From Anagrus nilaparvatae (Eukaryota > Arthropoda > Insecta > Hymenoptera > Mymaridae), in assembly GCA_022575985.1 (NCBI GenBank), contig JAKSXM010000247.1:6347501-6411500 (forward strand): a DNA stretch of 64,000 nucleotides, read 5' to 3'. The position numbers and the translations under genes are program-made. Under the pieces are notes generated by a model. The model searched no databases. It worked only from the letters and a program-made list of their open reading frames with translations, and had not been told where the DNA came from. Of the stretch, positions 32,130 to 53,910 are shown one piece after another. The first letter of the stretch is position 1; every line of letters starts with the position of its first letter.

Positions 32130-32324
32130 ACAATACAAACAGTACTATTGTAACAGAAAACAACGGTGACAGTGCAAGCATAAGCGATTCCGACAACGAA
32201 AATTTTCACGACACCGTAGCCTTAGTAGAATCAGAAGAAGAACAAGAAATGGCTACTACTATAAATACTTCCAAAATTAAGCTGCAACCGTTTTATGAGT
32301 CTGAGCAACCGGTTCAAGGGTTCC
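32130..32324 (+). pseudogene. Gag N-terminal fragment
   Basis: An open frame reads TENNGDSASISDSDNENF and continues through DTVALVESEEEQEMATTINT to KIKLQPFYES before the junction at about 32,324. An acidic stretch followed by MATT...KLxPF is how many gypsy-type Gag proteins begin. It is followed directly, in a different frame, by integrase sequence, so the rest of gag and nearly all of pol are deleted. Confidence 0.55.
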
Positions 32325-32547: not shown

Positions 32548-32551
32548 GTGT

Positions 32552-32816: not shown

Positions 32817-33419
32817 TAGAGCTATGGAGCTTTCAAGCTCCGTAGCAGCCAAAGTTGAAACTTTGGAGCTTTGTGTCCATGGAGACATTTTTTCAGAATA
32901 ATAAAATCTAAACCATACAAAAATTCACCTAATTTGATCGAACGGCCATATCCTATTCATTTGTGCGGGGTCCTTTTTCGAAAAATCGCAAAATTAAAAA
33001 CAAAAGTTAATTCAGTTTTTTAAATATTTGACCAAATTGCTGTTATGCAATAACTAACAAAAAAATAATAAATAATCAATAATAATTTATATATAATTAA
33101 TAATAAATATTAAACAATTACCTAAGACAATATTTATAAATAAAATATGTAAATACTATTTAAGTTTGTTAATCAAATAAGAAATGTTTTACGTTAAGAA
33201 ATAATAACATAATATTAAGAAATTATAACATAAATTAGGAAAGCATAGTTTATTATTACGCAATCTATAACATAAGATTATATAATAAATAAATAGTTTA
33301 GGAAATTATAATATTTATATTTTGGAATACTTTAAATAATTTAAAAAAACACGATTAATGTATAAGACAATAAAAATTTTAACAAGGCAGTCAGTCAAGA
33401 TAAATCTCGCGACGTATAC
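32817..33419. other. Hairpin and AT-rich spacer
   Basis: Begins near a hairpin at 32,821-32,846 (GCTATGGAGCTT, 2-base loop, AAGCTCCGTAGC). The rest is A/T-rich, without ORFs. It ends in ATAC at 33,416-33,419, the left target duplication of the large LTR element. Confidence 0.6.
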
Positions 33420-34059
33420 TGTTGTGTTTAGATGTGAATAAACACAGATAAATGAGGATGTTCGTATTCGGGTTTAGCCTGTTGGCTAAACTCATTTACT
33501 GGTGACAGGAATTTAAATAACTAAGTCCTTTTGTTATTATAATGCTGATTTATTGACTTATAAAGTGGCTGGCCGTGCTTAGATCTCTTAATAGCGGTAG
33601 AGAGATAACCTGAGTACAAGTTAGTTAGTTCAGTCAGTTCTGTATTTCAGTTCGTTCTCTCTAAGGGACTACATGGTCCCAAGTTCTCTCTGCTCTCCCT
33701 CCTTCTTCTCTGCCGGTCAGGAGCTTGTGCGAGAGCTTTTATAAGCTTACGCTTGAGGGAATAGAAGAGGGGATCGATGCGCGTAATTGGCTTAACGCGG
33801 AAAATTTAGTGTCCTTAGTAACAGTGTCTCCAATCATTGGTAATTAGTCTGTCAAAGCGCATGATGGGGGTGGCTTTATTCCCACCTTCAGGACTTCGTG
33901 TGAGGTCTTATTATGCACTTTCTTGCACGTGCGGTTTCTCGGAATGATGGTGCTGATGAAGAATTTTTAATTATAATATCATATTATTTTAATTCTAATA
34001 AATCTGTCTAGACGTAATTCTTGGTATTTATATTTAATCAATTTGTACCTAACGGTACA
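33420..34059 (-). repeat. 3' LTR of the giant element
   Basis: 640 bp; in element sense it begins TGTACCGTTAGG and ends CACAACA. The AATAAA signal for transcript ending lies at 33,549-33,554 on the minus strand. It differs from the other LTR at 33,718 (C here, T at 53,529). The inverted pair GTTTAGCC / GGCTAAAC can form an 8-bp stem with a 4-base loop. Confidence 0.95.
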
Positions 34060-34070
34060 CCTCCCCCTCT
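34060..34070 (-). promoter_or_regulatory. Polypurine tract
   Basis: AGAGGGGGAGG on the minus strand, directly adjacent to the 3' LTR start. This is the expected plus-strand DNA primer of an LTR retrotransposon. A 15-base stretch including it recurs at 45,194-45,208. Confidence 0.85.
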
Positions 34071-37000
34071 GGGATACATCCCTCCTGGGATGGCTACTAT
34101 CCAAAACTGTCATGTTTTCAGTGAGAACAAAAAAAAACAGGGAGTGGTTCTAAAATGTCTACCTATTAAGAGATCTAGTTACGTTTTAAATTTACATTTG
34201 TTTTTACAGAAAAAAAAATCTTAAATTTACATTTGTATAAAGTTTTGAATAATTAAACTTATGTGGATTACAATATTTCATAAAAACAAAGTTATTAAGT
34301 TCAATTCCTTATTTTTACATCTTTTACAAAAATATTAGTTTATGTTTGATCTTTGTTGAAGTACTGGTTTTTTTATAAATTGATAACTTAAAGAATATAG
34401 CTATTTGTATATAACATTTTATGCTTCATTATTATTTTAGAGATTATTGTTATTTTTACTGCTGTTTTTTTTGAAAAGACAATGTATTTCTACAAATGTT
34501 ATACTAAACTTAATAATTAAAATTCTTATTTTATTTTACATTTTTTTTTGATTTTTGATTATATATTAAAAGAAAAAGAAAAAAAAATTAAGATAGTGTA
34601 AGACATATTTTAGAATTAACGTTACTTGTGATTACCTAGTTATTTTAAACTTATTGCTATTATTTATTTTTTATACATTAAAATTCTTAAAATTATTTGT
34701 GATTACATAGTTGTCTTATAGTTATTGATATTATTATTTTTATACATATTTTTTTTTTGATTTTTGTATTTTGAAAAGAATATTATTAAGATAGTGTAAG
34801 ATGTATTCTAGAAGTTAAAGTTACTTGTGATTACATGATTATCCTAAAATTATTATTATTTTTTTGTTATAAACCTTTTGATTCTTGTTAGTTTTTCGTG
34901 TTTTGAAAAATGAGAGGAATTGAAAATACATTTTTTATAAGTGTTACACTGAAAGATTCAATTACAGTGATTAGGTGATTATTAAAACTTATAGTTATCA
35001 ATATTTCATTACTATTTTTTTTTGGATTTCCTGAATAATATTAACATATAAAATTATAGGAATTTTTTCTACTTTTCATAGTAGTTTGGGTAATTCATTA
35101 TTATTACTATTTTGTAGTGTTTAGAAACTAAGAAAAATTAAGATCAAATTTTACTCTTTTGTTTGATTGTTCGTAATTGTTTATATATGTATATATAATT
35201 TTTTTTTTTTTAATTTGTTTTTTGTGAAAAAAAAAATTTTATACTTAGAGAAATTAAAGAATATAAACTGAAATTATTAAAGAAATAGGAAAAAATTATA
35301 GTGCAGTTAATAATTTTCTGATTATAATAAATTTCTTGGTACATAGAAACACTCCAAGTTTGAATTTATGTTTTTGTTTCGTTTTTAAATTTTTTGTATA
35401 TTTTGTGTTTTTTTTTTTATTAGTCTAATTTTTATACTAGTAAACATTAATTATATAATATTTTGATTATTAAAATTATTGGTTATTTTATGCTTAATTA
35501 AATGAAAAGGAAAAAGTATATGAAAATTATTATAGAAAATAACATGTTAAAATTAGTATATCTTTTCTTTTGCTTGTACTCAGAGTTGGATTTTGTTTTA
35601 TGAAGGTGTCTCAGTTGTCTTTTGAAAAGGAAAGATTCTTTTGTAGTTGTCAAGGCTTCATATAGGATGCGAAGAGCTTCTTGTGGTTGATTGTTTGTCT
35701 GCGTGTTTGGCGTTATGATGTCCAGACTGCTACTGGAATTTGTATTATATCTGGTTTTTTGGCCACCTTAAACGCATCTGTAACTTTCCTAAAATAATTA
35801 GTACCCCTACATTCGAGACAAAACGTGAAAATTAAATTTCATATTAGGATGATAATAAGGATTGTGAGTAAAATTTATTGATTGTGAGTGTAGTTTAATG
35901 TATGTGAAATATCGAAGTTTATTTTTCTAAATTTCATCGTATTCTGATATTTTTGCACCTCGGATTTTATTTTTTTATAATAAAATTTATAGCTATTAAA
36001 TATGTACATAATGTACTACTATATTTTTATAAAATAAAAGTAATTATAACGCATATTAAATGCCAATGATAGTTTTTTTTTGATTACATAAAAAATTTGT
36101 AGTACGATTTTTGATTATGTAATGATTATAATGATCATAACTTTAATTTTTTTTACGGTCACTTTGCTCTATAAATTTATGGCGGTATTTATTCAATGAT
36201 TAGGCGCGGCTATTTTAAAAAAATTATATATAGCCTGTATGGATAAATTGGTGGTAACCAACACACACGTATTTCGAACGCAAATAGGGACCTAAAAAAA
36301 ATAAACTTAATATAGTAATTGTAGTAATTATAGTAATTGTTGTCATATAAAAACAACAATAATTATTTAATATAGTTACTTCCCATTAGTAGGAGAGACA
36401 CAAATATAGGGTATAAATATTTTTTATGCTATAAGATTAAAATGTCACCACTTTTTGCGTTTGTTCCCTTTTTTTTTATTTTTTGAGATGATTATAGAAC
36501 TTTTGTTTTTTTTTTTTATTACAGGTAAAAATAAAATCAATCAACAGAAAATTTATTAATTATGCTAAGAAAAATATGTACCTAAAGGTGGTACTATTAT
36601 AATACGTTTATGTATATTTATATCATTATTAAAAAAAATGCAGTGATAGTTGTATGAAAAATAATAAAAATTTAATTTTGAAAACAAAAATTAATAAATT
36701 CAAAAATCCAAACCTCTATTGGAATAATATTTTTTTTATGATTATTTTTTTTCCTATTTTTTTTTATTTTCTTAATTACTTTATTTTTATATGCATGAAA
36801 AAAAAAACAGCGCTTGGCAAAAAAAAAATCTCCAGTCTATTTCATAAGTAAATTACATAATATTATAACTTATTAGTTATATTTGTAATTATTTATTATC
36901 TTCTATAAAAATCATTTTGTTTATTGTTGAGCTTATTAATTTTCACCTAATCATAAGTAGTTTTTTTTTAAATTAACAATTTTATATTTGTTATTTTTGT

Positions 37001-38633
37001 TTAGATATTTGAAAATAGTCCGTAAAAATTATTTATTCACATCTTTGAGAAAAAAAAATTTCAAAAAAAAATTCTAAGGTGTTAATGGTAATTTTATGTA
37101 CCGGTCATATATAAAAAAATGTTATTTAATATAAAAGGCGCGATAAGCTTTTTATTTGAATATTTTAGTTCAAGTAAAAAGCCATCTATCGAATGTCCTT
37201 GGTTTGTAGCTAAGTGAAATATTTTCGAAAGCTAACTGTAGCCTTATATATAAGTAAGAAAGAGACAGTTAGTTTTATAATATTCAAAGACGTTTAGGTT
37301 TTATCACACGTCTTGTGAGTAGAAATAGTAGTTTTCTTTATAAGGGCGCAGAGTGATACTTCTCGCCCGGACTATACTTTTTTGATTTATCGCGTAATTT
37401 TTTATCGCACTTGTTTTTACTTGATTTGGATCCCATTTCTATATAGTAGTTAAGTTTTTTATATACATAAAAAGGATGTTTCTTTAAAATAAAAGGAAAA
37501 TAATCCAAAATCTTATGATTTTTTTTTTATTAATATATACTTTTGTCATTTGAAGTTAAACTAATTTTAGGTCAATAAATAATCGACATGTTTATAGGCC
37601 ATTTTTTTATTTCAGTTTATATGTGAGGTAATGGATAAAAAAAAATTTAATTAGACTCTGACTTTTTCTGTGGAAAAAAGAATTTTCGTTTGATTTGGAA
37701 ATATTCTTTTTTTTTTACGATACTACCCAAAAAAAATTTTTACTGAATCGTTCATATCTGTAAAAGTTACAATAGTTTTTCAAAAAAAAATTTGAACAAA
37801 TATTATATACTTTTAATTCTTATCGGTCACTAATTTTGGTAATTTAATATACTATTGTGCAGACGCAAAATACTTGAATGTGATAAAAGCTTGGGGCCTC
37901 GAGCTTGAGACATGATTTTTTTTTAAATTTACAAAGGTTTTGGACTAATATTATATATATTTCTAATTTTTACAATGAGTAGTCGAGATAAGCCACGGTT
38001 ACTTGTGGATACAAACTATTCGGTAACCTAAAGTAACCTTTATTTACCACTCAAAAATGCAATGGTCCAGGACGGGCAATTATTTTTTATTTATAGATAA
38101 ACTGAAAAAATTTATATACGTATTATTTTTGTTGGAATTTTTGTTAAGATTATTTTATTAGCATAATTTTTCTTCTTTTTATCTTCCGCTAAAAGCACAT
38201 GTTCCGTATTTTTTGCATTCCTTTGCTAATAAAAAAAAATTCATCATATATAAATGAAGTGTATTTTTTTTTGCGACCCTAATCGTGAAAACATATAGTT
38301 CCCAAAAAGATTGTATTTAAATGCAAAAAAAAATTATATTTATTGTTTATAGATAAAATATTGGAAAGAAAAATACTGCAAGGTAATTGGCGCTATGGTT
38401 TTTTACTAGCAATAAAAAATATTCTTCGTGGCCCGTTTTACCCAGTAAAGCTTAAAAAGCATAACGTTTATTACTATTACAAAAGATTCTGTAGTTTTGT
38501 GACTTTTCAAAAGGTCCATATAATCTAAATTTTGCACTGATACTGCTACAAATATAAAAAAAATAAAATCTACGTGTTATTTTTATGGGGTGTTTTAAGC
38601 TATCAAAGTTTTTTACTTTGGCTATTTTGTTTT
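34071..38633 (-). other. Non-coding interior of the giant element, part 1
   Basis: A/T-rich with long T- and A-runs and no ORF above 67 codons on either strand. A less A/T-rich patch lies at about 35,580-35,765. A block at about 37,185-37,290 resembles 42,712-42,825. No RT, integrase or envelope-like sequence was recognised. Confidence 0.7.
37185..37290 (-). repeat. Diverged internal duplicate, copy 1
   Basis: Shares ordered phrases with 42,712-42,825: ATGTCCTTGG, GAAGCTAAGT or TAGCTAAGTG, a GTTAG-rich stretch with GAGAGACA or AGAGACAG, then TTAGTTTTAT or TTAGTTGTTTTAT. Similarity is patchy, so this is a tentative call of an old duplication or conserved structure. Confidence 0.4.
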
Positions 38634-39415
38634 TTGTGAATATACGTTACTGAATAATTTTCTTGAAAACTGCTTAATATACCCTTAATTTATGTTTAAA
38701 AATACTTTAAAACTATTTAAAACCTTAATTCATATTTTTCAAATTTGCTTGAATTTTCAAGCAAACGCTAATATTTTTCCTTGAAAATTTCTTAATATAC
38801 TCTTAATTTTATGTTCAAGATACTTTAAAACTATTCAAAAGCCTTAATTCACATTTTTTTAAAAATTTTCTCGAATTTTCAAGCAAACACTAATATTTTC
38901 CTGAAAATTACTTAGTATACCCTTAAAAAATACTTTAAAACTATTTAAACCTTAGCTCATATCTTAAAAATTTTTTTTTTGAATTTTCAAGCAAACACTA
39001 CTATTTTTCCTTGAAAATTTCTTAATATACTCTTAATTTATGTTTAGTATACTTTAAAACTATTCAAAAACCTTAATTCGCATTTTTAAAATTTGCTTGA
39101 ATTTTCAAGCAAACGCTAATATTTTCCTGAAAATTACTTAGTATACCCCTAAAAATACTTTAAACTATTTAAAACCTTAGCTCATATCTTTAAAATTTTG
39201 CTTGAATTTTCAAACAAACACTAATATTTTTCCTTGAAAATTGCTTAAAATACCCCTAAAACTATTTAAGGGCCTTAATTCATATTTTTAAAATTTGCTT
39301 GAATTTTCAAGCAAACACTAATATTTTTCCTTGAAGATTTCTTAGTATACCCCTAAAACTATTTAAGGGCCTTAATTCATATTTTTAAAATTTGCTTGAA
39401 TTTTCAAGCAAGCTT
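38634..39415 (-). repeat. Tandem repeat of about 95-125 bp with palindromic core
   Basis: Seven diverged units, each carrying GCTTGAATTTTCAAGC (7-bp stem, 2-base loop), then AAACACTAATATTTT, CCTTGAAAATT, a TTAGTATACCC or TTAATATACTC phrase and ACTATTTAAAACCTTA. The two rightmost full units (starting near 39,203 and 39,298) are most alike. Intervals shrink from left to right because of deletions. Confidence 0.8.
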
Positions 39416-39565
39416 TTCTTTTGTAAACTATTTTAATTTACAAAAAAAAATTACTTGATTTAATCATATTTTGTTTAAAATGTTTCATATTTTACCGGTC
39501 TAGTTATATTATTGTCTAGTTATATACTCATATTATTACACAGTAGCTTGTTTTTATATATATAT

Positions 39566-39790
39566 ATATGTGATTTACTCATACTAAAACATTGTCGCTC
39601 GTTTTTTTTTATATGTGATTCACTTATACTAAAACATTGTCGCTCGTTTTTTTTTATATGTGATTCACTCATACTAATACATTGTCGCTTGTTTTTTATT
39701 ATATGTGATTCACTCATACTAATACATTGTCGCTTGTTCTTTTTTATATGTTATTCACCCATACTAATGCATTGTCGCTTGTTCTTTTTT
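39566..39790 (-). repeat. 45-bp minisatellite, five exact-length units
   Basis: Five units of exactly 45 bp, each beginning ATATGTGATTCACTC-like and containing CATACTAA and ATTGTCGCT. Open on both strands because the unit has no stops; not a gene. It is unrelated in sequence to the 45-bp satellite at 17,717-18,835. Confidence 0.9.
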
Positions 39791-40549
39791 ATATGTTCTA
39801 CTGTATAATCGTCTTAAGTTCTCTCTCCCTTTTTTTTTCTGTGTTTTTATACCCCATGTGCCTTTATACTATATCATTATATTTATTAGGACATTATTAG
39901 AATTTGGTAAGTACTCTAATGTTTATTCTATTTATTATTATTCTTTTTGATAATTAATAATATTACTCCTATAAAATATATGTATATATTTTTTCCATTG
40001 TTATTTTTATTTTAGTAAGCCTCATGCATAAATTAAAAAAATTTATTTAACGTCTTTTTTCCAATCCAAGCACGACTTTATTACTGGTTAAAATCCCTAA
40101 AATTTTTTATTATTCCCTTAAATTGCCAAAGTATGCTAAAAAGTTACTTGGGTTAAAACTCCAAAATTTCTTGTTAAACTTATACATTCCAAAATTTGTT
40201 TAAGTATCCAAAAATTTACTCAAATATTAATAAATTAATTGATTCAAAAAATTTTTTTTTAAACTGCGTAACCGTTTAATTTTATAGTTTTTATGTTTGA
40301 ATATACTGCAAATGACTAAATCCTGTTAAAATTTTTTCAACCGCTCAAGTAGTAAAGAAATAAGTTATTCCTGTAGTTTAACGTATTTTCTTTTTCTTAT
40401 ACTTTAATTAAAAGGATTTTACTTTAAGTATTAACTAAAGTTTATAGCTAAAAGATATTGCAAAAATTTATAATCTTATAACAATTTAAACAAGAAATAA
40501 CTATCCCTATCACTAAATTATTCAATTTTTTCTTAATTCTTTCAACATT

Positions 40550-41650
40550 TCAAATCCCTGCTTGGAATTTCAAGCAAATTACACATTGCTGACATTTTTT
40601 TTGTCTGTAATTCTCTAAATTTTTTGTTCAGATTTTCGCTTAAAGCCAAAATTTACTGAATTCATTTACTTATTTCTATCTTTAACATGATTAATAAAAA
40701 AAATCTCCAAATAATATTTTTAATCTCCCTTAAAAAAAAATTGCTTGAACTTTCAGGCAAACAAAAAATTGCTTTCATTATTTTTAAAATTACTGAAATT
40801 ATTTACTTATTTCTCTTAAACATGGTCTAAAAATAAAAAATGAAAAAAAAATCTCGAAATGACATTTTTAGTTTCCTAAAAAAAAAATTGCTTGAACTTT
40901 CAGGCAAACAAAAAAATTGCTGTCATTATTTTAAAACTTTAAATTTTTTCTTGAACTTTTAAGTAAACATAACTCTTTCACTGGACTTATTCTACAAAAA
41001 TTTACTCTATTTAGAAAAATATTACTAAAAATTAAATCTCTCAATTTTTGCTTGAAATTTAAGGCAAACATAACTTTCATTGAACTTATCCTACAACTTT
41101 TATTCTATTTAGAAAAACACGACTTGAAATCAAAAATTTTTTTTTACCTTTAAAATTTTGCTGGAAATTTCAGACAAATTATAAAATTTATTATATTATC
41201 AAATTTATTCAGTTATTTAATTGTTTTTTATCTTAACTTGATTTAAAATGTCTTAAAATGACATTTTTAAATCCTAACAAAAAAATTGCTTGAAATTTTA
41301 GGCAAACACAAAATTGTTTACCTTATTTCTCTTATTTCAAACAAAAAGGTCTGAAAAACTCTCTAAGTTTCCTGTTTGAAGAATTTTTTTTTTCCAAACC
41401 CAAAATTACTGCCATTATTTAATCATTTTTATCTTAGCATGATTTAAAATGTCTCAAAATGACGTGTTTCTTTTTTTTTTTAATCTTAAAAAAAAAATTG
41501 CTTGAAATTTCAGGCAACCATAAAATTCACTAATAATTTTCTGAGAAAAAAATTTACTTTACTTCACAATTGATTTGAAATGTTTTAAGGTAATATTTTT
41601 ATCCTTAAGCTTTACTTGAAATTTAAACCTAAACTTTACTTGAATTATTT
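40550..41650 (-). repeat. Dispersed TTGCTTGAAATTTCAGGC motifs
   Basis: At least eight diverged copies, near 40,560, 40,742, 40,889, 41,048, 41,158, 41,287, 41,499 and 41,607, each followed by AAACA- or AAATT-like sequence and spaced 100-200 bp. They are a weaker form of the palindromic core seen at 38,634-39,415, so both regions probably derive from one expanded unit. Confidence 0.65.
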
Positions 41651-44600
41651 TTAAAACAATTGCTCTATTTAGAAAAATATGACTTGCAATGACATTATAG
41701 TTAATTTTTATAGTTAATTTTATCGTACTTTCCTAAAAAAATAAATTATTACCCATCTATCATTTTTTCCTAAGTCTCTCAAAAAAAAAATTTTAGTCCA
41801 ATAAAATTATTCTAATACTCTATTTATTATTATAATTTATATTTATAATATATATTCTATTATTGGTACTTAATTATTTTTGTTACTTTATAATAACTAA
41901 TATTATTATTTTTTTTTTTTAATCATTATTATTAATACTTTTTTTACAAGCCCTATACGTTTTACTATAGTTTAAACGTTACCTTAACTAAACCCTTTTT
42001 TTGTCTCATTTTTTTTTATAAAAAAAAAGGCGTTTGATCTACAAGTATATCCTTTAATCAGGTTACGAGTTCCAAAAAATTTTGCTCTTAAACTAAAATT
42101 TTAAACATTCCTACTTAGAAAAACTGTTCTTCAGAAATACCCGCATTGCATTTTATATGGTTTACAATTAGATTTTCCAAAAAATAACTATCATACGTCC
42201 TTATATCTACCTAAAAAAAAATACAACGACTTTGAAAATTTCAACCCACAATTTTTACGTGTTTTCTTCTACTCGCTTTTTTTTTATAACTTTATATCTT
42301 AAATCTTTATTAAAATTTTGAAATTACAAGCAAAACTTATGTGGCTTAAAATAATAGAACAGAAAAAAAACTCTCTTAAATTCTTATAATTATTTAAAAT
42401 CATTCTTTTTTTTTTTAATTTTTGCATAATACAAACAAAATTTACGTGGATTACAAAAGGAAACTCTCTTCAAAAAAAAAATTCCTATTTCTAAAACAGT
42501 CTTAAAAACTTAATAACATTATTTTATGGCTTAATAATTAAAATAACTCCTACTTTATATATTTCAACTCTTTACTAAAACAATTACAAAAATACCAGCA
42601 AATAAATATTTTATGCGTGTTTTATTATTTTTTTTTTTCAGAGTATAAAAATAAAGCTTTATTATTGGTTACTATTTCTTGTATTTGAATATTTGAAATC
42701 AGTAGCTCGCTTCCTCTGTTGATGTCCTTGGGATGAAGCTAAGTAAAATTATATCGGTTGCTAATCGTATTCTTATGTGAAGTTAGAGAGAGACATTTAG
42801 TTGTTTTATTTTTGAACGGCCTATTATTATTGGTTGATATAAACTTATGTGTGTATTCGGCGGGCTTTTGAAATTCTGGGTTATTATTCTATTGTTTCTT
42901 GTAAAAAATTTTTGAATACTTCGTATATTACACACAAAATTTTTTATGTTTGTTGAACAAACTTTTTTTTAAAGATTTTATCAATAATTTGTTAAAAGAA
43001 ATTTATTTAAATGAAATTTTATTAAATTTAGGTCGAAAGTCTGCTTTCTATTTATAGTTTATAATGAAAATTTTTTATTAATCGATTGAAATGTATCTAG
43101 ACATAAAATAAAATTATCCTTCCAAAAAAAATTGAATTAAAATTATTTTCCAACAAATGGAAGGGATGATTTATTTTAAAAAAAAATTCAAAAAAACTAA
43201 TTCTTAGTCAACTGCTATAGACATACGAATTTATAAAAAAAAATTATATTAAAAAAAAAATTTTAGGTGTACTAAAAAAAACTATTTGTGTATACTACGA
43301 TAAAATTCAAATATTCTGGTCTGAAATAGGCTTTTGATGGTATTAAAATGCAAGCGCAAAAAGGGATGGAGAAAAAATTATTTTATATGAAAAAAAAAGG
43401 ACGAAGAAAAAAATAATTTACGCTGGGACAGAGAAAAAATTTGATGTTAATAACTCTAATAAAAAATTAAAAGGTTTTTTATTATTTTTTTTTATTGATT
43501 ATTTTGAGAAAAAGGTGTACTGCATTTTCAGTAATATATAGTTAAATTAAATTAATTAAATTAATTAAATTAATTAAATTAAATTAATTAAAATTAAATT
43601 ATTTGACTTATTTAAATTGTTAATATGTCTACTTTAGAGATGAGGATTCAGATTAGATTTTTACATTCAAATCTTATTATTGGTTGAGATTGAAATAAGC
43701 TGAATAATAAAAAGAAAAATAAACATGTTCAATAATTTAACAAATGGATAAATGAAGGGTAGTTAAACGAATCTAGTTTTATTTATTAAAAAGTATTAAT
43801 AATATTATAATTTTTTCTATTTTGTTTTGTATTTTTTCTTATTTGATATGACGGGGTGTAAAACATTTTTCTAAAGTCTATATTATGTATTAAAATATTT
43901 CTTCATATAAAAAAAATTACGTTTGTGTAAAAAAAAATACAATTATCACCATTCCTTCTCACACTCTCTCAAATCCAACATATTATTATTATTAACATAT
44001 TGTTTTGTAGAATTTTTTTTTTTTTAAATATATTTAGTATTTTTTTGTTATGCGAGTATAAATCTTATTTTTATTTTATAGCCTTTTAGATTGTTCTTAT
44101 ATTATACATGAATTATACGTTTTTAAATGTATGTATAAAAACTATGCTAAACGTCTATTACACCCTTCGCGTTATCCGCCTTCACTTCTCTCTTACTTTT
44201 TTTTCTTTTACTTTCACATGTTTTTCCTATGTTTATATGTATTAGATATATATAATATTTGCAGATGTTTTGATTTTTTTTGCTTCGGTATACTTAAAAG
44301 TGTTATTTAAACGAAGATATTGTCTATGTTCTTCTTCTGTTTATGACTTTTTAACGAAAAAAAAAAGGTTAAGGAAACTACTTTTCGTGACACATAGATG
44401 AGTAATAATTTCGTGTTGATTAATCCAAAAAATCTTTTAGATTTTTGTTTTAAATATTTTTTTGTTAAAATTTACATTTTTTTTTGCAGTTTGTAAACTT
44501 CAAAGTATTTTGTTATCTTAGAAAATTTCTCATCTCTTATGCTGTTTATCTTGATCCCTTAATGATGTTTCGTAGTCCTTTACAAAACTTAGAGGGAAAA

Positions 44601-45192
44601 AGATTTGCTTACAGACTGATTTAGTATGTCTTAAGTTTTTGTTGTCATGATTTTCTTTTCCTAATAGCATCCTTTTATTGCGTTATTTGCTCTTTTTGTT
44701 GTTCTGCATGTGATTTTTGAATGTCTGTTCGTACATATAAAAATATACATATTCTCTAACCAAACTAAGGTAACTCGGAAATTTTCAAAAAGAAAAAAAA
44801 AGGAAGTGAGAAAAAATTAGAAAACCCAAAGGGTCTTAATAGGCTCTTAATTTTTTATTTGTAAGTTATATTTTTTTACTGCATAAGAAAAAAAAAATTT
44901 ACATTATTTATTGCACAGAAAAGGCATTGCTTCGAGAGAGCATAAGGGTGGGGGGTAACACATGTATTCATTTTTATTCTCTCTTATATTTTTTATTTTT
45001 ATCAGTTGATCGATTCTATTCCCGTTAAAAAAATATTATTACCCCATCATATTTTAACACGTAGAGAAGGAAAAAAAAAATCCTTGCGCGAAAAGATAGA
45101 ATTTAATTAAACTAGTTTCGTCCATTTTACCCATCATTAATATACTTAGATAAATTTTATTATAAAAATATAAATAGGGGGGGGGGGTAAAT
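41651..45192 (-). other. Non-coding interior of the giant element, part 2
   Basis: No gene recognised. Contains the second diverged duplicate (42,712-42,825), a simple repeat of AATTAAATT type at about 43,545-43,600, and an 11-base G-run at 45,177-45,187. A/T content is very high throughout. Confidence 0.65.
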
Positions 45193-45208
45193 ACCTCCCC
45201 CTCTGGGA
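45193..45208 (-). promoter_or_regulatory. Second copy of the polypurine tract
   Basis: TCCCAGAGGGGGAGG on the minus strand matches the bases around the 3' polypurine tract exactly over 15-16 nt (compare 34,059-34,074). It sits 11 kb upstream of the 3' LTR in element sense. Lentiviruses and yeast Ty1 use a second, internal polypurine tract to prime plus-strand DNA. For a 20-kb cDNA that would make sense, but the function here is inferred. Confidence 0.55.
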
Positions 45209-47835
45209 ATATAGTTATAAACTAGTCGTTTTCATTTTCAAAATCATTCCCGTTATTATTCTCAGTAAAAGGTAAAATTACGATTTGAATATAATTACTC
45301 TGCCCCGTATCCTTGGCTTAACCATTGACGGCAAAAAAAAATTTATATTTTTTATATATATTTCTTACATAATATTTCACCCTTGAGAAGAAAAAAGAAA
45401 AATATTTAATAAAGAAAAAATTTTCTTATGGTTTTTTATTCTATTTCTCTTTCTCCTTCCTTATAAAAATCGAATAATTGTTTTGTATTTTAAATTAAAG
45501 ATCTTCTAATTCTATCCCTTTCTAAAAGAAAAGAAAAAGAAAAAAAAATTAATGCTTATTCAATGAGAGAAAAAAATATTTAGTTACGTGTATATAGAAA
45601 TTATAAGAGAAATCAAAGGTATACATATCAAATTAGTGATCTTATATATCAGCAGTTTTTATTCTAAGTAATTATTCATAATTTGTATCTTATATATTCC
45701 ATAAGATAAATAAGTCTAGACGATACGAAAATTCTTTATCAAATTTTATATTTGATATTTGATATTATATTTATGCATTTAATTATTTGATATCCGCTAG
45801 ATTAATATACTTTGTTCAAATTCCTGTAACTTAATTAAATTGCTTATTTAGCGTTTTATATTATTTTTCTTATCGCTAGCTTTATATTTATTCCTTAATC
45901 ATAAATGATATATAATAATTATTATTTATGCGTTAGAAAAAAAAATAATATTTCTTATTTTAATTCGTAATATTAGTAATTTTATATTTGTTCTTAATAT
46001 TATAATCGTTAATTTAAATATTTTATTTTATACCCAAAGAGATTTACTCTTCTTTTTTTTACTAATTCTATTTTTTCATAACGAAAAAAAAACTTAGATA
46101 AGAGAACTGCTTAATTTACGGATTTTTGTATCAATTCTGAACTTTCTTTTTGGTAAAAAAAATTAAAAAAAAAAACTTATCCAGTTTCCACACTAAAATT
46201 ATTCCTTAAAATTACCTCCGTTATCTACAAACTAATACATATTTGGGTAAAGGTCATAAAAGATAATAGTAAAGTATACTGAGTGATTACATCTATAGAA
46301 AGAATATACCTAACATAAAATATGTATAAAAATATGCCATATGGCTATATGTCCAAAAAAAAGACCTGTTGCCTTTCGGTTAAACTTGGTTTTTTATATT
46401 TTATTCGCTTTTTCTTTTTTTTACAACTGGAGCCGTTATTTATTTATTTGCTCGCAAAGAAAAAAAAATTTATAAGTAATGGTATAATTACATATTTTTT
46501 GTCTTTTTACAAAATTTATCGTAAGTACATTCATATTTTTATTTATTTCTCTGCGCCCTCTATTTAATTTGTGTTAATATTATGTTCATTGTGTGTCTCG
46601 ATAATTTTATCAGAAAGAAAAAAAAATGATTTATTTGATAATCAAAATCTTTTGTAAAAAAAAACTGTCCAGTAGAATTTAATATAGAATTTAATATAGA
46701 ATAATAATATTTAATAATAATATATATAATATCGTATTCGAATATTTATCGTTTTATTATTTTCGCATTTTCCCGGACATTTTCGCGAATCTTAAGTTTG
46801 GTTTCATTTTTGAGGCTGGCAAATACAAAAGAAATAAATCTTAGGGTATTTCTCTAATGCATAAGGTCTCTTACGTTTTGTTCTTGTACATAAGAAAAAA
46901 AAATTTAAAAGGGTGCTGTGCCTATCTGGTCATGTACAAAACTTTTTGGGATAATTACTTAATGAATCTATTCTATACCATTTCGCAGTTCTAAAAATGT
47001 ATATTAGATATTTTCCATCCGTTTTAGTTTTCCTGAAAATCGGTTTTAAAGTTATCGTAATATTGAATTTTCTTAAAAGACCTCCTCGTGGAATAAGATG
47101 TTTTACGGTATTTTTGAAACAAAAGTGTACTTGACCTAATCTTTACCATTTCGCAGATCTAAAAATATCATTTTGAACTCGGATTTTCTTTTTTGGTCCT
47201 AAAAAAAATTGATTTTAAGTTTAAGAAATTAGTTGTAGAATAAGCCTGTTATGGAGCGCATTAGCACATATAGTAACAGCATATAAGGTTTTTACAATTT
47301 GGCAAATTCTTAAGTCTCTCTTGCAAGTTATTCGTATTAGAATTGATCTTACATTTTTTTTTTTAACATCTGAAAAATACGAAATCCTACTTGGACTAAT
47401 CGAACTTGTTATATTAGCGTATATGTGTCCGTCTTATTTATTAGTGTTAATACATGTAATATTTTTTTTATTTATTTTATAATATTTTTTTACAGTGAAA
47501 TATTTATTTTTTTTGTTTTAACTTGTTTCTTGATAAAATTAAAATTATTTATTAATTATAAGGTTCCTTATTTCCTAGTATTAGTTTAATTTTTCGGTTT
47601 TTCTATTATATTATTCATCTTTTGCTAGATATTGGTTAAGTCTTTTACATAGAAAAGATTTTCATACTCGTTAAATAAATTTTGATCTCTCACTATCAAG
47701 AAATTTTTTCTTTATTTTAATCTATCCGACAATTTCGCAAACATTTTTTGTTTTATCTAATTTTGCTCATAATACTTTGTCTATAAAATGTTTTAAATTT
47801 AAAGAACAGTTGACTATTTAAAGTTTTCAAACATT
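45209..47835 (-). other. Non-coding interior of the giant element, part 3
   Basis: A/T-rich. The only longer open stretch is an 81-codon plus-strand frame at 46,322-46,567, hydrophobic and lysine-rich, which looks like chance. Nothing resembling integrase was seen downstream of the OTU-like ORF. Confidence 0.65.
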
Positions 47836-48411
47836 TTATAGGTTCCGAATTTCGGAGATTTCGTCTTTAGGTCCCCATGGAGGCTTACGTTCCGGTCGTA
47901 GATGATTTTCTTTATCTACAGGTTTTTCTTTTTTTGCATCTTGAGATTTCCGGTAATTATCAATTTCTTTTCTGTCTAATTTTGTTACAAGATCTTTATT
48001 TTGTACAGCTTTACGTTGGTTTTGATATTTGTCGACCTCACTTTTATCTAATTTAATTACTAGCTCTTTATCAGTTTTTTGTTTCAATTTGCCCTTTGTA
48101 GTTATTTTTATTAGAGGAGTATAATGGTTTTCGCTTAAATGTAAATGTATAAAATCTGAATTATTATTATTGCCCGTATGATGTACATAGGTAATTGTTT
48201 TAATTTTATTTTTATTTTTATTTAAACCGTACATTTGTACGCATAAGTTAATTTTATATTTATTTAAAAAAACAAATAGCGCATCTGCGTTCCCCCAAGT
48301 ATTTTTCTTGTTTAATACATTATTGGCTTCTTTGGGTTCCTTGGCTACTTGCATATGTTTACTATATTTTAAATAATCTTTTAATTTATGAAAGTTTAAA
48401 TCACTTTCCAT
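47836..48411 (-). CDS. OTU-like cysteine protease C-terminal half (191 aa)
   Basis: The first half reads TWGNADALFVFLNKYKINL, then VQMYG, then IHLHLSENHYTPLI. This is the pattern of the C-terminal part of OTU-type deubiquitinating proteases (WG, a helix, a strand, then the catalytic His in an HY pair). The N-terminal DGxC box with the catalytic Cys is not in this ORF, nor in the upstream ORF, so activity is unlikely unless another piece joins it. Residues 105-191 are charged and repetitive, with two VTKLD/VIKLD units. It lies in the same frame as the protease ORF, after two stop codons (TGA, TAA) five codons apart; it may be a separate ORF, a readthrough product or a relic. Confidence 0.55.
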   Translation of the reverse strand: MESDLNFHKLKDYLKYSKHMQVAKEPKEANNVLNKKNTWGNADALFVFLNKYKINLCVQMYGLNKNKNKIKTITYVHHTGNNNNSDFIHLHLSENHYTPLIKITTKGKLKQKTDKELVIKLDKSEVDKYQNQRKAVQNKDLVTKLDRKEIDNYRKSQDAKKEKPVDKENHLRPERKPPWGPKDEISEIRNL

Positions 48412-48423
48412 TTAGGGTTTAAA

Positions 48424-49983
48424 TCACTTCCGAGGTATTTCTACTATTCTTTTTAATTTATCTGAGCCGTTGCTTGGGCATATATTTTTGTATGCTATCA
48501 AGTCAGCTTTTTTATTTATTTTAATTTTATTATTTTTATTTTCGTACTCAATTATATTCACTTTATTATTTACTTCTTTTTCATATTTATTTATTTTATT
48601 TATTTTAATAACTTTATTTATTACTTTGTTTTCAATTTTAACTCGTTTAAAATTTTCATTATTAATATTTTTTAAATTACTATCATTAAATATTTGTTCG
48701 ATTATTCTTTGTGGGCTTATATTTTTACTTTCATCTTTCGTCTTTATATCCTCTATAATTTTAATTTTGGGCTTTTCTATTCTCTGCATTTCCTGTTGAA
48801 AGAATACTGCAGGAGATGTTTTGTTTTCTTTATTAATGGAATTTATGCTCTCTAAAATTTCCATTTTTGAGTTTTCTTGATTTTGCATTTTTAATTCTAG
48901 TAATTGACTAGGTAGTCGGTATGGAATTTCGGGTCGGATTTTTTCTGGTTTACCCACAGGTCTTTTTAATGGTAGGGCTTCGTTTAATACATTTTCAACA
49001 AGCTTACGTTTTGTTATTGTTCTTGGTTGTATTAATCTTTTGCTTCTCGTAACAATTATTTTCTTTTTCTTCGTAATTCTGACTTTTTTTGGAATTACGT
49101 AATCTGAGTCAGAACCAGATTCTTGCGTAAATTTAAAATTTTTCTTATTAGTTAGCTTTCTTTCTATCTTTGCGATTTTAAACAAACGTGTATAATTTTT
49201 TGAATCGGACTCTAAAATATTATTAAATACACCTTTATTTGACATTTCAAAGGGTTTAACTTTTAGTTGATCTGGATATGCTTGACTTTTTCCTGCTAAA
49301 TTATCTTTTCCTGGTCTATGTAAAATTTCGAATTCCATTTCCGAGTCCCAATACTCTTCTTCCTGCTCTTGTCTGATTTCGTAGTTTAAGAGATTGACAA
49401 TCGGAGCTTCTAACTCGATAACTTCGTTTGAAATATTTATGCATCTCACATATGCTTGTCCGTTTATATTTGTCGCGAGTGCATTTTTGATAATTAAATT
49501 TGGATCTAAATCTAAATGGGGTATATATCCCTCTCTTATATCTAAATTTTTTACGCATAAGTATATGTTCTCGCAAGAATGGGGTTGAATTAAAAATTTT
49601 TCTCTTTGTAAGAATGGTAAAATAAATTCACCAAAATGTAGTCGCATCCTACCTAAATCGATTTTCCCTTCATATCTCTGTAAGTTATCTAGACCTAATA
49701 TCGCATCTGCTCCGAATGAAAAATTATCGTCAATAACGTGAAATAGGCAGGGTAAATTATTTATATTTAACATAACAGATCCCTTTGTAAGGACTTCTTT
49801 TTGTGTAATTCCTAAGATTTTTACTTGAACTCGTGTATTAACATATTCTGAATATCGTAGAGCAGATTCTTTTACTAAGCTAATACCAGCTCCACTATCA
49901 ATAAAAAAGGTCCCTTTTCCCCCGATAAGATTTTCACTATTTAATCCAACTACAGGTGGAATTTTCCTTGCGCTTGAGAACAT
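48424..49983 (-). CDS. pro: Retropepsin with RNase H-like tail (Pro; RT deleted)
   Basis: 519 codons from the first Met, but the frame is open upstream to the frameshift site at 50,052, so the natural product is a Gag-Pro fusion. FFIDSGAG at residues 26-33 holds the catalytic Asp29 of an aspartic protease, and ADAILGLDNLQ near 91-101 is the second conserved motif. In a gypsy element reverse transcriptase would follow. Here residues 219-232 read FEILHRPGKDNLAG, the end of a gypsy-type RNase H, so RT and most of RNase H are lost while the frame is kept. The last 270 residues are lysine-rich, low-complexity, with VTRSKRLIQP near 315. No integrase motif is present. Would cleave Gag during particle maturation. 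Confidence 0.85.
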   Translation of the reverse strand: MFSSARKIPPVVGLNSENLIGGKGTFFIDSGAGISLVKESALRYSEYVNTRVQVKILGITQKEVLTKGSVMLNINNLPCLFHVIDDNFSFGADAILGLDNLQRYEGKIDLGRMRLHFGEFILPFLQREKFLIQPHSCENIYLCVKNLDIREGYIPHLDLDPNLIIKNALATNINGQAYVRCINISNEVIELEAPIVNLLNYEIRQEQEEEYWDSEMEFEILHRPGKDNLAGKSQAYPDQLKVKPFEMSNKGVFNNILESDSKNYTRLFKIAKIERKLTNKKNFKFTQESGSDSDYVIPKKVRITKKKKIIVTRSKRLIQPRTITKRKLVENVLNEALPLKRPVGKPEKIRPEIPYRLPSQLLELKMQNQENSKMEILESINSINKENKTSPAVFFQQEMQRIEKPKIKIIEDIKTKDESKNISPQRIIEQIFNDSNLKNINNENFKRVKIENKVINKVIKINKINKYEKEVNNKVNIIEYENKNNKIKINKKADLIAYKNICPSNGSDKLKRIVEIPRK

Positions 49984-50018
49984 AACTTTTGCGGTTGTCG
50001 GGTTTTGAAAAATATTTA

Positions 50019-50042
50019 GCTCGACACCACTCAGCGTCGAGC
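50019..50042 (-). promoter_or_regulatory. Frameshift-stimulating hairpin
   Basis: GCTCGAC and GTCGAGC form a perfect 7-bp stem that extends inward with G-U, C-G and U-G pairs to a 4-base loop. It begins nine bases after the TTTAAAC site in element sense, and the gag stop codon (50,031-50,033) lies in its upper part. Position and size fit a -1 frameshift stimulator. Confidence 0.8.
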
Positions 50043-52058
50043 GGCATACAAGTTTAAATTCTGTTGATCATTAGAATTTTCATTTCTCATGTAGGTATTA
50101 CTATTCCGATTTCCGTTGTTTATATTTCTTTCTTGATTAGTATTGTTGTACCTTGGCTGATTTTCTCTCGGAAAATTATTTGCATTTGTAAAATTACCAT
50201 TATTGTTACTACGCAGCATGCTATTTCTGTTAAAATTATCGCTGTTATTATAATTTGGTCTATTTTCATTGCTTGGGAAATTATTATTGTTATTTCGATT
50301 AAAATTATTTGTGTTTCTTTCGCGGAAACCGTTTTGATTTGAACCTGAGTTTTGATTTTGATTATTAAAACGATTAAAATTTTGTCTGTTGAAATCGGGG
50401 TTCCTATTATTTGTAAAATTATTACCTCGAAAATTATTATTTCTTTGCCCGCCAAAATTTCCGAATCTACTATTAAAATTTGCTTGGTTATTAAAATTTC
50501 TATTATAATTGAAACCTGAAAAACGATTTTGCGGATTATAATTATTTCGCGGCCCCATATATCCTTGGTTCGTGTTGTTTTGATAATTTGACCAAAATGG
50601 GTACGGGTAAGGTCGATAATTTTGATTTGTTTGGTTTTGTTCTTGATTTTTCATTTCTTGCATTTTTTCTTCCGTTGGAATGTCTCCTGATTCGATCGCT
50701 TTAAATAGTTTTTGACAATTTTGAACTTGATGACTCCCTTTGCAGAAAACGCATTCTATTTTTGCTGCCATTGCGGTCTTAACGTTTGCCGTCGCTGAGG
50801 CTAAAAGAGCCCAAAGATTTTCTAAATCGGTGTTTTGAAAATTATTCGAATCTGAATCAAAATTATTATTTCTCGTTTGTGGATCAACAGTGTGTAGAGT
50901 TGCAATATTTTTATTAGGTTTTGCAGCACAATTTTCGTGTCTTTGGAGTACCTTACTCCTGCCTTCCAAATTCACTGCAATATTTGCGGCTTCCCTCAAT
51001 GTGGTCGGCTTTTTGGCCGATACCCTATATTCCGGTGGGTCCCTTAATCCGTATAGAAAACATTCTAACGATTCTTGTTTTGTTCTTGTTTTTTGGTATT
51101 CTTTTTCCCCTTGTCTCATACTAACCGAAGAGTCGTATAGGGACAAAAGTCTTTGTTCTAACGTTTGAACTCGTAGTGCATAATCGGCTACGGGTTCATC
51201 TTCCTCTTGTTCAACCCTTCTAAGTTCTAACCTGATAGTATCTGCATCTTGAATACCTCCGAACGTTAATTTAAGATCTTGCAATAACTGTTCAATAGAG
51301 TCATATCCTGGTGCCGTACCTCCATAAGCTAGTTGGGCTCGTCCCTTTAGTTTTGTGGAAATCGTGTTTAAGATCCACTTTTCACTGTTTGGTCCGTAAG
51401 TAGTTAAAATATCCCGTATAACTTTCGCAAATGCGCTTAAGGTTTCTGGACGGCCATCATAATTTGGGATTGTTGTTAGGGCTGCATTTAGCGGTATGTT
51501 TCCATATGGGATTCCCGATCCTTGGGTGTACATAACCCTTCGTTCGCGTGGTTCTCTGTGGTTATTCATTTGTATATTTTCGGTGGGAAAACGTCTTATT
51601 TCAACCATAGGTTCATTATTGATAAAAAATTGCGGCTCGTCTTGTTCCTCAATTTCATCTAATACCGGTTCCCTTAACAGTCTTCTTCTTACAGGCGGTC
51701 TAATAAACGGCACGCGATATCTAACGTTATTTTGTATATCTGCTTCCTCAGGTGATTCTGTCCGGTATTCGGGGTTTTCTGTATTGTTTAAATCGTTAGG
51801 TAAAACTGGACGAGGTAGCAAAACGTCATTCTGACCAAGTTGTGCCCTATATCTTTCTAACTCGCTAACCAGGATATCGTTTTGTTCCTGCATTCTATGT
51901 ACCTCACTAAGGGTTATTGTCCTGTTAGGATTTTGTGTACTATTTTCCCCGGCTGACATTCTTCTAAATTGTTCTGTTATATGTTCTATGTTACCGTTAT
52001 TAGTGCTGCTTATATTTGGAATATTTCTTTGTGTAACTTGTTCGTTTTCGTCTCCCAT
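50031..52058 (-). CDS. gag: Gag polyprotein (675 aa)
   Basis: Complete frame from ATG at 52,058 to TGA at 50,031. Residues 1-190 are acidic and disordered-looking. A capsid-like region at about 195-390 contains NYDGRPETLSAFAKVI, LKGRAQLAYGG and FLYGLRDPPEYR, the general pattern of gypsy-family Gag capsids. A zinc knuckle CVFCKGSHQVQNC at about 435-447 has the CX2CX3HX4C spacing, one residue shorter than the common form. The last 200 residues are Asn/Gln/Arg-rich. Gag would form the particle and bind the RNA in the cytoplasm. No stops or frameshifts are seen, in keeping with a young element. It joins Pro through the frameshift site near its end. Confidence 0.9.
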   Translation of the reverse strand: MGDENEQVTQRNIPNISSTNNGNIEHITEQFRRMSAGENSTQNPNRTITLSEVHRMQEQNDILVSELERYRAQLGQNDVLLPRPVLPNDLNNTENPEYRTESPEEADIQNNVRYRVPFIRPPVRRRLLREPVLDEIEEQDEPQFFINNEPMVEIRRFPTENIQMNNHREPRERRVMYTQGSGIPYGNIPLNAALTTIPNYDGRPETLSAFAKVIRDILTTYGPNSEKWILNTISTKLKGRAQLAYGGTAPGYDSIEQLLQDLKLTFGGIQDADTIRLELRRVEQEEDEPVADYALRVQTLEQRLLSLYDSSVSMRQGEKEYQKTRTKQESLECFLYGLRDPPEYRVSAKKPTTLREAANIAVNLEGRSKVLQRHENCAAKPNKNIATLHTVDPQTRNNNFDSDSNNFQNTDLENLWALLASATANVKTAMAAKIECVFCKGSHQVQNCQKLFKAIESGDIPTEEKMQEMKNQEQNQTNQNYRPYPYPFWSNYQNNTNQGYMGPRNNYNPQNRFSGFNYNRNFNNQANFNSRFGNFGGQRNNNFRGNNFTNNRNPDFNRQNFNRFNNQNQNSGSNQNGFRERNTNNFNRNNNNNFPSNENRPNYNNSDNFNRNSMLRSNNNGNFTNANNFPRENQPRYNNTNQERNINNGNRNSNTYMRNENSNDQQNLNLYAARR
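50052..50058 (-). promoter_or_regulatory. -1 ribosomal frameshift site TTTAAAC
   Basis: Gag codons AAT TTA AAC place the heptamer as T TTA AAC, the classic X XXY YYZ phase. Slipping back one base enters a frame that is open without interruption into the protease ORF. The gag stop is six codons further on, so most ribosomes would make Gag and a minority Gag-Pro. Confidence 0.85.
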
Positions 52059-53209
52059 ATCACCTAAATCCGAGATATTATTTCTTCCGATTCTTAAATT
52101 TTTTGCGATACTTTTAAATTTTCTAAATTTTTCTTTAATTTTTATTTTACGTTTGGGTGGAATTTTGTAATATTTATATTTATGATTTTGGATTTAGAAC
52201 AAGATATTAATGCAAGGTTTAAAAAAAATTTTTTTTTTTAAAATGGTTTTCGATAGTTTATTCAAAAAAAAATTATCAGTTAAAAAAGAGAAAAACGTGA
52301 AAGTTCTATTTTATAGACTGCCCTATATATATGTTGCTAAATGTAAATTCGTTTAATGCTAAATGCTTTTTGCGCGTGCGTAGTTAGTTTGGTAAGATTT
52401 TGCAAAATTCAAGCTCTCTTTGCACAAAATCTAAGCTGCTTGCTTGCTGTCTATATCCAAGGGGTTATGGAATATGTGAATGTTTGCCTAATATTAGGTG
52501 TTAATATGTTAATTTTTTTTATTCTTATTATTTATTATATATTTTTCTTTTTTTTGGAATTAACCCTTGTTAAAATAAGATTATTATGAATTATCAAAAT
52601 AAATTACAGCCCGCAAGTCGCGTATTGCTAGGTTTAATCAATTCAGTAAAGGTATTACTAAGATATTTTGTGTAATTTCAAAGGCAAATGTATTACGTGT
52701 AGTTCAGAAGTTTTTTGTAGATGTATATATTAGAAGTATTTTTCGTAATTAAGTATATAAGTGTATTGATAGTAAAATATTCTGATTTGTAAGTTACGTC
52801 GAAATGTTTATTGTCTCGAATGTTTATTTAAAAATTTTAACTAAAATGTACTCACAGTACTGCAACGATGAAAATCCAGTTTCCTGACATTTTCTGTCGT
52901 TTGGATGACTTCGGTACTGCTTGGCTCTCTCGGTCTCTGGATACCGCTGGTCCTGTTGACTAAACTCCAATGATATTGATTTTGCGTCTTGATCCCTTTT
53001 TGTTCTTGTAGAATAATTTCCCGTAGAGTGGTAAAATCCTTGTTTGGGCGCCTGAACGTATACGATGTTCTTTCCTTCTATGTAAGATTTTGGTATTTAT
53101 CTGGATGTCCTTTTTTTGAAAAATTATTGATTTTTCTCAAAATCTCTTTGCTGCTTGCAAAAAAAAATTTCCAATTTTTTTTGATTATCTATTCCTGACA
53201 CCTCCGAAT
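52059..53209 (-). other. 5' leader of the giant element
   Basis: About 1.15 kb between the primer-binding site and gag. Non-coding in element sense. It should hold the packaging signal, but no motif can be named. Confidence 0.6.
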
Positions 53210-53227
53210 ATCCCACCGGAGCGTCCA
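53210..53227 (-). promoter_or_regulatory. Primer-binding site of the giant element
   Basis: In element sense, three bases after the 5' LTR, the sequence reads TGGACGCTCCGGTGGGAT. Its complement ends in CCA and looks like a tRNA 3' end (T-arm strand, acceptor strand, CCA). I could not assign the tRNA species. Confidence 0.65.
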
Positions 53228-53230
53228 ATT

Positions 53231-53870
53231 TGTTGTGTTTAGATGTGAATAAACACAGATAAATGAGGATGTTCGTATTCGGGTTTAGCCTGTTGGCTAA
53301 ACTCATTTACTGGTGACAGGAATTTAAATAACTAAGTCCTTTTGTTATTATAATGCTGATTTATTGACTTATAAAGTGGCTGGCCGTGCTTAGATCTCTT
53401 AATAGCGGTAGAGAGATAACCTGAGTACAAGTTAGTTAGTTCAGTCAGTTCTGTATTTCAGTTCGTTCTCTCTAAGGGACTACATGGTCCCAAGTTCTCT
53501 CTGCTCTCCCTCCTTCTTCTCTGCCGGTTAGGAGCTTGTGCGAGAGCTTTTATAAGCTTACGCTTGAGGGAATAGAAGAGGGGATCGATGCGCGTAATTG
53601 GCTTAACGCGGAAAATTTAGTGTCCTTAGTAACAGTGTCTCCAATCATTGGTAATTAGTCTGTCAAAGCGCATGATGGGGGTGGCTTTATTCCCACCTTC
53701 AGGACTTCGTGTGAGGTCTTATTATGCACTTTCTTGCACGTGCGGTTTCTCGGAATGATGGTGCTGATGAAGAATTTTTAATTATAATATCATATTATTT
53801 TAATTCTAATAAATCTGTCTAGACGTAATTCTTGGTATTTATATTTAATCAATTTGTACCTAACGGTACA
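53231..53870 (-). repeat. 5' LTR of the giant element
   Basis: 640 bp. A TATAAAA box lies at 53,548-53,554 (minus strand), and the AATAAA of the same LTR at 53,360-53,365, about 190 bp downstream, so U3, R and U5 can be placed roughly. The stem GTTTAGCC / GGCTAAAC lies at 53,283-53,302. The outer end is followed by the ATAC duplication at 53,871-53,874. Confidence 0.95.
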
Positions 53871-53910
53871 ATACCTTAAACCGATTTTATAATAAATTTA
53901 AAAATTATAT

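Follow-up and report, generated by a model that had tools for sequence, protein, structure and literature searches.

The window analysed here, a stretch of 64,000 nucleotides from the genome of the wasp Anagrus nilaparvatae, carries a long terminal repeat (LTR) retrotransposon of 20,451 bp on the minus strand (window positions 33420-53870; the features of the element given below all lie on that strand). The element is bounded by two LTRs of 640 bp each with TG...CA ends (5' LTR at 53231-53870, spelling TGTACC...ACAACA; 3' LTR at 33420-34059), which differ at a single site, sense position 342 (33718/53529), and it is flanked by a 4-bp target-site duplication that reads ATAC on the plus strand (53871-53874 by the 5' LTR and 33416-33419 by the 3' LTR). 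In the sense of the element, the 5' LTR is followed directly by the primer-binding-site position TGGACGCTCCGGTGGGAT (53210-53227) and then by a 1.17-kb leader, gag, a frameshift signal, and the protease frame; these are succeeded by an open reading frame (ORF) of 191 amino acids, a 13.7-kb stretch without long ORFs, the polypurine tract AGAGGGGGAGG (34060-34070, read from the sequence directly before the 3' LTR), and the 3' LTR itself. The LTR pair with its one difference, the duplication, the primer site, and the polypurine tract had been named in an initial annotation of this sequence, and all of them are confirmed here.

The gag gene (50031-52058), recognized from the ORF list, Pfam, and its motif, encodes a Gag of 675 amino acids with a CCHC knuckle and a weak match to PNMA (E 0.0009, below the Pfam cut-off). 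The second frame (48424-50067, first ATG at 49983) contains the protease at approximately 49980-49325, with an active site reading FIDSGA and a weak Asp_protease match (E 0.0003, also below the cut-off), in frame with a pol linker that runs from the end of RNase H onward. A slippery heptamer followed by a spacer and a hairpin constitutes the textbook -1 frameshift signal, and at 50019-50058 there is a TTTAAAC heptamer (50058-50052; T TTA AAC in the gag frame), a 9-nt spacer, and a hairpin with 10-bp arms. The arrangement is the same in C, an autonomous relative in the same genome that is described below, and two more distant autonomous families, B and A, have hairpins in the corresponding position with different bases paired; this putative signal suggests that a ratio of Gag to Gag-Pro is being kept. 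Gag and protease had been described as intact, which holds for the frames with their CCHC and FIDSGA motifs but not for every detail, as the window Gag stops 5 codons short of a 680-amino-acid form (the stop is present in 4 of 13 copies examined, the window included) and approximately 150 bp have been lost between the second and third ORFs. The window copy also lacks approximately 922 bp at 47258 that are present in five of seven other copies.

Within the leader, a mini-ORF, MSGNWIFIVAVL (52845-52890), runs into a splice-donor-like GTGAGT site and is identical in all eight copies examined. In the window family and, as read by eye, in families B and A (L041, L042), the leader has a short reading frame that opens with AUG, includes hydrophobic residues, and terminates at a donor resembling GTGAGT/GTAAG; from its sequence, this frame resembles the first exon of a spliced mRNA, perhaps of envelope type. 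The 13.7-kb body (34071-47582), which accompanies only the form that lacks reverse transcriptase (RT), includes tandem repeats at approximately 38.6-41.7 kb. Rfam and tRNA scans of the window returned no matches, and 19 of the 22 body ORFs of at least 60 amino acids were run against Pfam with none above the cut-off, the remaining three being within the tandem repeats. Hidden body genes, sought through three-base periodicity, were rejected as a candidate, as the copy-weighted signals were not repeated outside gag once distinct sites were counted. Outside the repeats, 3.2-3.8% of body sites are variable, compared with 9.4% at fourfold sites of gag (window plus five copies), and this lower variability may reflect constraint or different genealogies.

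What is missing from pol can be defined against families A and B, whose Pol frames are uninterrupted over 1774 and 1793 amino acids, respectively (with a stop in one of four B copies), and of which one Pol each was found to contain RT, RNase H, H2C2, and rve integrase domains in Pfam. Relative to Pol B, the second frame of the window corresponds to residues 32-250 across the protease (68% identity) and is then joined in frame to residue 708 onward, right at the end of RNase H, continuing through the linker, and the 191-amino-acid ORF corresponds to residues 1116-1282; alignment to autonomous pol places the junction, the site of the missing RT and RNase H, at 49325. No integrase match was obtained when the element was aligned to Pol B. 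The RT/RNase H and integrase queries of A and B gave no match at E<=1, whether run against the window element or against seven other nearly complete copies, the latter represented by 14 pieces that omit at most approximately the final 0.9 kb for most of these copies and approximately 2.6 kb for L039/L040. A and B detected each other in this search at 54-55% identity. The earlier statement that no complete RT, RNase H, or integrase is present therefore stands, with the addition that parts of pol remain: the linker from the RNase H end, the C-terminal part of an OTU-like domain in the 191-amino-acid ORF (47836-48411, the stretch with the catalytic motif being absent from the window copy), and scraps of the integrase region at 47803-47583 that match the closest autonomous copy at 73% over 202 bp and 94% over 32 bp. 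A single ORF of 805-806 amino acids spans the protease, linker, and OTU-like frames in five of the seven other copies; it is interrupted in L033 and L039, and in the window copy the loss of approximately 150 bp divides it.

The protease (PR)-RT-RNaseH-integrase order of Ty3/gypsy elements is found in A and B and, in pieces, in C, and the window element retains PR and remains of the rest. It is clear from these results that the LTRs, primer site, polypurine tract, Gag, frameshift signal, and protease have been kept and that RT, RNase H, and integrase are absent. A TR-GAG element has a single, Gag-only ORF, whereas the second frame here encodes a protease, and a LARD is a large element without coding capacity, whereas gag and pro frames are present here; Gag together with a protease frame (with small lesions in the window copy), the absence of RT and integrase, and cis-signals in common with a partner are what is expected of a semi-autonomous element.

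The same layout recurs across the A. nilaparvatae genome, in searches that scored only the best candidates, so that all counts are lower bounds and absences are correspondingly limited. The LTR query gave at least 40 matches (40 of 267 candidates were scored, the window's two included), many of them paired approximately 20 kb apart. Among 70 matches to gag, the first 32 are 80-100% identical, and eight of these are followed within 6 kb by an RT of the appropriate type, compared with 24 that have none among the matches listed. Of the 24 RT-less gags, 17 have body segment 2 (36400-37900) no more than 40 kb downstream, as against 0 of the 8 RT-bearing ones, and three more of the 24 carry body segment 1 (43000-45000), judged by position. 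This tally used 18 of 93 RT matches and 30 of 43 body matches and ignored body strand; the remaining RT matches were inspected by eye, and none was near the 32 gags. Body segment 1 occurs in 39 places after merging of matches, at approximately 85-100% identity, and segment 2 in approximately 30, numbers that exclude chance, and neither segment was found, by position and among the matches listed, in any of four C-type LTR intervals. The LTR pairs of four copies differ at 1/640 (window), 0/640, 0/641, and 0/642 sites, and the three copies other than the window have 4-bp duplications of AAGG, AGAG, and ACAT. Two copies on contig C95 share an identical leader-gag-protease stretch but have different bases flanking their LTRs (ATAT and CCAT), which fits two recent insertions; the C155 and C1:33.4M copies closely resemble one another and may represent alleles. 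All 13 copies examined (10 non-autonomous and 3 autonomous) retain the FIDSGA motif and the CCHC knuckle.

The window element is thus a member of a multi-copy, recently inserted population. The initial annotation had called for a search for other full-length copies, and the seven nearly complete ones, read in pieces, repeat both the layout and the absence of RT and integrase (with a divergent body part in the L039/L040 copy), which rules out a lone, private deletion. A mis-join of the window copy is very unlikely, given that LTR pairs flanked by matching duplications were obtained for four copies. Taken together, the idea of a lone defective copy or an assembly mis-join, for which nothing was found and which has 24 of 32 gag copies without RT among the matches listed standing against it, can be given practically no credence.

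The autonomous relative that had likewise been sought is represented by C, in which RTs 60-64% identical to that of B adjoin gag copies whose Gag is 97-98% identical to the window's. Three of the eight such copies (L011, L012, and L015) are 96.4-96.8% identical in DNA to the window from inside the LTR (U5) to the end of the protease and run on into RT exactly at the point where the window jumps, and two C copies have a Pol frame of 1837 amino acids. The primer site of L015 is identical in all letters to the window's, and in the copy at C79:5.43M, the LTR start and end agree with those of the window, the polypurine tract is the same, and the 700 bp leading up to the 3' LTR are 79% identical. 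An autonomous form with the same cis-signals and a nearly identical Gag is therefore present in the same genome. Families A and B, our first candidates for the nearest autonomous partners, were replaced by C, which has a far closer Gag. That A or B rather than C mainly drives the element would be compatible with their open Pol frames and similar primer site, but their likeness in the LTRs is limited to short motifs and their Gag is 58-61% identical, whereas C matches in LTR ends, primer site, polypurine tract, and a nearly identical 5' half, and we regard this alternative as highly improbable.

Two further observations concern these relatives. An RT-less copy at C347:431510-480457 has an LTR pair approximately 49 kb apart and a partner-type U3, and its leader-gag-protease stretch is identical to that of a 20-kb copy; by its sequence, it is a mosaic of the two forms. 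In family A, a 450-amino-acid ORF lies antisense to and downstream of pol (L022:898-2247, plus strand; also in L021), with no Pfam match above the cut-off and a weak resemblance to LRR below it, and is possibly a captured gene.

The relationship between the two forms changes abruptly along their length. Compared with the autonomous copy L012, the window element differs by 1.1% over positions 402-3600, from U5 into late gag (36/3192), and by 9.6% over positions 3600-4540 (90/940), with a Fisher p of 4e-32 for the step, and beyond the deletion, identity to the partner is 76-80% (20-24% difference). Such a step is found in all eight non-autonomous copies compared, near 3600 in the window, L010, L016, and L020 and near 3900 in L013, L018, L019, and L039, and between 3600 and 3900, the listed pairs drawn from the two groups show differences of 5.7-7.6%. 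Along 1.3 kb of linker and OTU-like sequence, L037 matches the partner at 88% identity, and pieces of the window, L031, and L039 match it at 76-86%. Of 111 variable sites in gag, just 3 are fixed differences between three autonomous and nine non-autonomous copies. Two step positions among eight copies look like copy-choice recombination, and the simplest reading of these alignments is that template switching has several times replaced the 5' half of an old non-autonomous lineage. The window Gag would then be close to that of the partner because the 5' half was swapped recently and not because the deletion is recent; in other words, the lineage is apparently old and its gag young. Copy-choice recombination also implies that both RNAs were very probably present in the same particles.

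As gag has been exchanged, the protease, which lies past the steps, is the better test of selection. Its synonymous divergence (dS) from the partner is approximately 0.48, and the ratio of nonsynonymous to synonymous divergence (omega) between L031 and C is 0.12, or 0.15-0.17 with wider bounds. The non-autonomous branch thus appears relaxed yet far from neutral, with a protease that appears constrained. These values bear on the possibility that the element is a pure parasite, with idle Gag and protease frames that survive through refreshment by recombination alone. In favour of this possibility, the element differs from C by approximately 1% across its 5' half and most of gag, Gag is less constrained than the partner's, and the ratio of nonsynonymous to synonymous polymorphism (pN/pS) of the protease within the family is 0.32. 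However, the protease beyond the steps is old and still has a low omega between forms, DSGA is kept in 13 of 13 copies, and the 805-806-amino-acid frame is open in five of seven other copies despite approximately 20% divergence beyond the deletion, and we therefore consider a pure parasite unlikely.

On balance, we consider it highly likely that the window element is a semi-autonomous Ty3/gypsy-type LTR retrotransposon mobilised by partner C, and very likely that it travels as a partly paying passenger. Several findings weigh against this reading. The middle of U3 differs between the two forms (14.5% in one bin), and gene conversion between integrated copies could mimic the divergence steps. 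The gag pN/pS is 0.22 among nine non-autonomous copies (also 0.22 without two near-duplicates), looser than the 0.05 among three autonomous copies, and in six non-autonomous copies, the window included, pN/pS is 0.32 for the protease, 0.54 for the linker, and 0.39 for the OTU-like part. Amino acid changes polarised with B are three to four times more numerous on the non-autonomous than on the autonomous branch (protease 13/4, linker 41/11, OTU-like 20/7). Given the looser gag, the within-family ratios, and this branch excess, the constraint is only partial, and gag could look well preserved through exchange alone. The OTU-like domain adds to these points. In C, it matches Pfam OTU at E 0.011, below the cut-off, and its best solved-structure match is 6dx3 (E 0.015), which we take to be a viral OTU; a database search with the autonomous linker/OTU stretch returned nothing at threshold. 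OTU cysteine proteases use Asp/Cys and His as catalytic residues, and autonomous C has a DNGEC...HYT motif, whereas K[YN][ND]KEY replaces the motif in 7 of 7 non-autonomous copies, in which the catalytic cysteine is lost; these copies accordingly do not encode a recognizable OTU cysteine protease.

Under the proposed mechanism, RNA of the element would be packaged in particles to which both forms contribute Gag, and the Gag-Pol of the partner would supply RT and integrase. Mixed RNA pairs would allow template switches during reverse transcription, repeatedly installing the partner's 5' half, and integrase would insert the element through the LTR ends common to both forms; Gag and protease would be the element's own contribution. 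The proposal of the initial annotation that a non-autonomous element moved recently with enzymes acting in trans is supported by the RT-less copies and the autonomous relative, and the partner's enzymes are those probably used. A helper and a satellite with nearly identical Gag in one genome offer a natural test of parasite versus contributor, and the recombination steps are a record that both RNAs probably met during reverse transcription.

The size of C also has implications of its own. LTR pairs with matching duplications delimit copies of 51.8 kb (C79:5432125-5483937, ACGG) and 56.1 kb (C79:17684570-17740707, TTAG), the flanks of the former reading by eye as one copia-like frame, and further LTR pairs, identified by pairing alone, span approximately 63 kb on C1 and approximately 49 kb on C347 (the RT-less copy). 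Pairing was by position, strand, and matched part of the query. In family B (L023-L026, L041), LTR positions paired by position alone span 26.5-34.0 kb in seven pairs and 3.9 kb in one, and the LTR matches in the seven giant pairs are 94-100% identical to the query. Judged from their LTR pairs, the C79 partners are possibly the largest LTR retrotransposons on record. It is a serious possibility, although we lean against it, that later nested insertions have swollen C to 52-63 kb and that its true size is ordinary: in one C copy, approximately 0.9 kb was read of the approximately 42 kb that separate pol from the 3' LTR, and C lengths vary (approximately 52, 56, and 63 kb), but the duplications match at both ends in both C copies checked, and the related family B is itself giant in the seven pairs just described. 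With somewhat more confidence, though still tentatively and short of an even chance, we envisage a giant Ty3/gypsy clade (B at approximately 27-34 kb and C at approximately 52-63 kb) in which C supports an old satellite with its own 13.7-kb body, a selected protease, and a gag renewed by repeated copy-choice. The size of C suggests that LTR retrotransposons may reach far beyond the usual packaging and reverse-transcription limit, which would then become directly testable.

Several other features were noted in the neighbouring sequence. Just outside the element, an integrase-like fragment (32295-32711, plus strand) is 28-29% identical to the integrases of Pol A and Pol B and derives from another retroelement. 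On the other side, a 600-amino-acid ORF (54224-56026, plus strand) has RT-like motifs by eye and no Pfam match at E<=1, and it adjoins a stretch of 49% GC (56578-59920, plus strand) with CCHC knuckles and an RT-like ORF of 306 amino acids. Positions 1-19000 are a long AT-rich repeated stretch, in which frames on both strands at approximately 17.7-18.9 kb contain reiterated KLKKYFNAIIAKKF-like units.

Among animals, HeT-A/TART of Drosophila provides a retroelement with Gag and without RT that is thought to borrow RT. It differs from the window element in being non-LTR and telomeric. A literature search of partial coverage recognised no animal counterpart, no larger LTR element, and no cooperative helper-satellite LTR system of such size and dynamics outside plants, which is weak evidence of novelty. 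The closest parallels come from plants, described here from the available portions of each report. RLG_Sabrina_SA of wheat encodes GAG and protease and is termed semi-autonomous (PMC9744471); like the window element, it is a multi-copy Gypsy element with an intact GAG-Pro frame and without RT and integrase. In contrast, its homology with the autonomous RLG_Wilma is down to a few motifs, whereas the partner of the window element has a Gag 97-98% identical and recently exchanged, and the window element has in addition the -1 frameshift, the OTU-like relic, and the 13.7-kb body. In einkorn, RLG_Quinta is a Gag-contributing, non-autonomous partner of RLG_Cereba, identified through a primer site, LTR termini, and polypurine tract in common, with template switching discussed (PMC11302176); its setting is plant centromeres, however, and it encodes GAG and a domain of unknown function, with protease unmentioned in the available text. 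A TR-GAG element reported to transpose in Arabidopsis ddm1 (PMC8704663) is likewise a Gag-encoding LTR element without the enzymes, but it belongs to the ATCOPIA63 family and has a single GAG ORF without a protease frame. Non-autonomous Retand elements and long pol-to-LTR regions have also been noted (PMC11963269). As for size, Burro, Ogre, and other giant LTR elements similarly have very long internal regions, which in Burro reach up to 25 kb for a total of a little over 30 kb (PMC6431247), a figure to be set beside the 26.5-34.0 kb of family B; these are described with full coding sets, and the C partner, at approximately 52-56 kb in the duplication-checked copies, and approximately 52-63 kb overall, would exceed every LTR retrotransposon named in the available part of that report. 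The division of labour that the initial annotation called unusual is indeed unusual, but the semi-autonomous GAG-Pro kind is already known in wheat, and what is new here is the apparently non-plant setting, the element's own 13.7-kb body, the repeated 5' exchange, and the giant partner.

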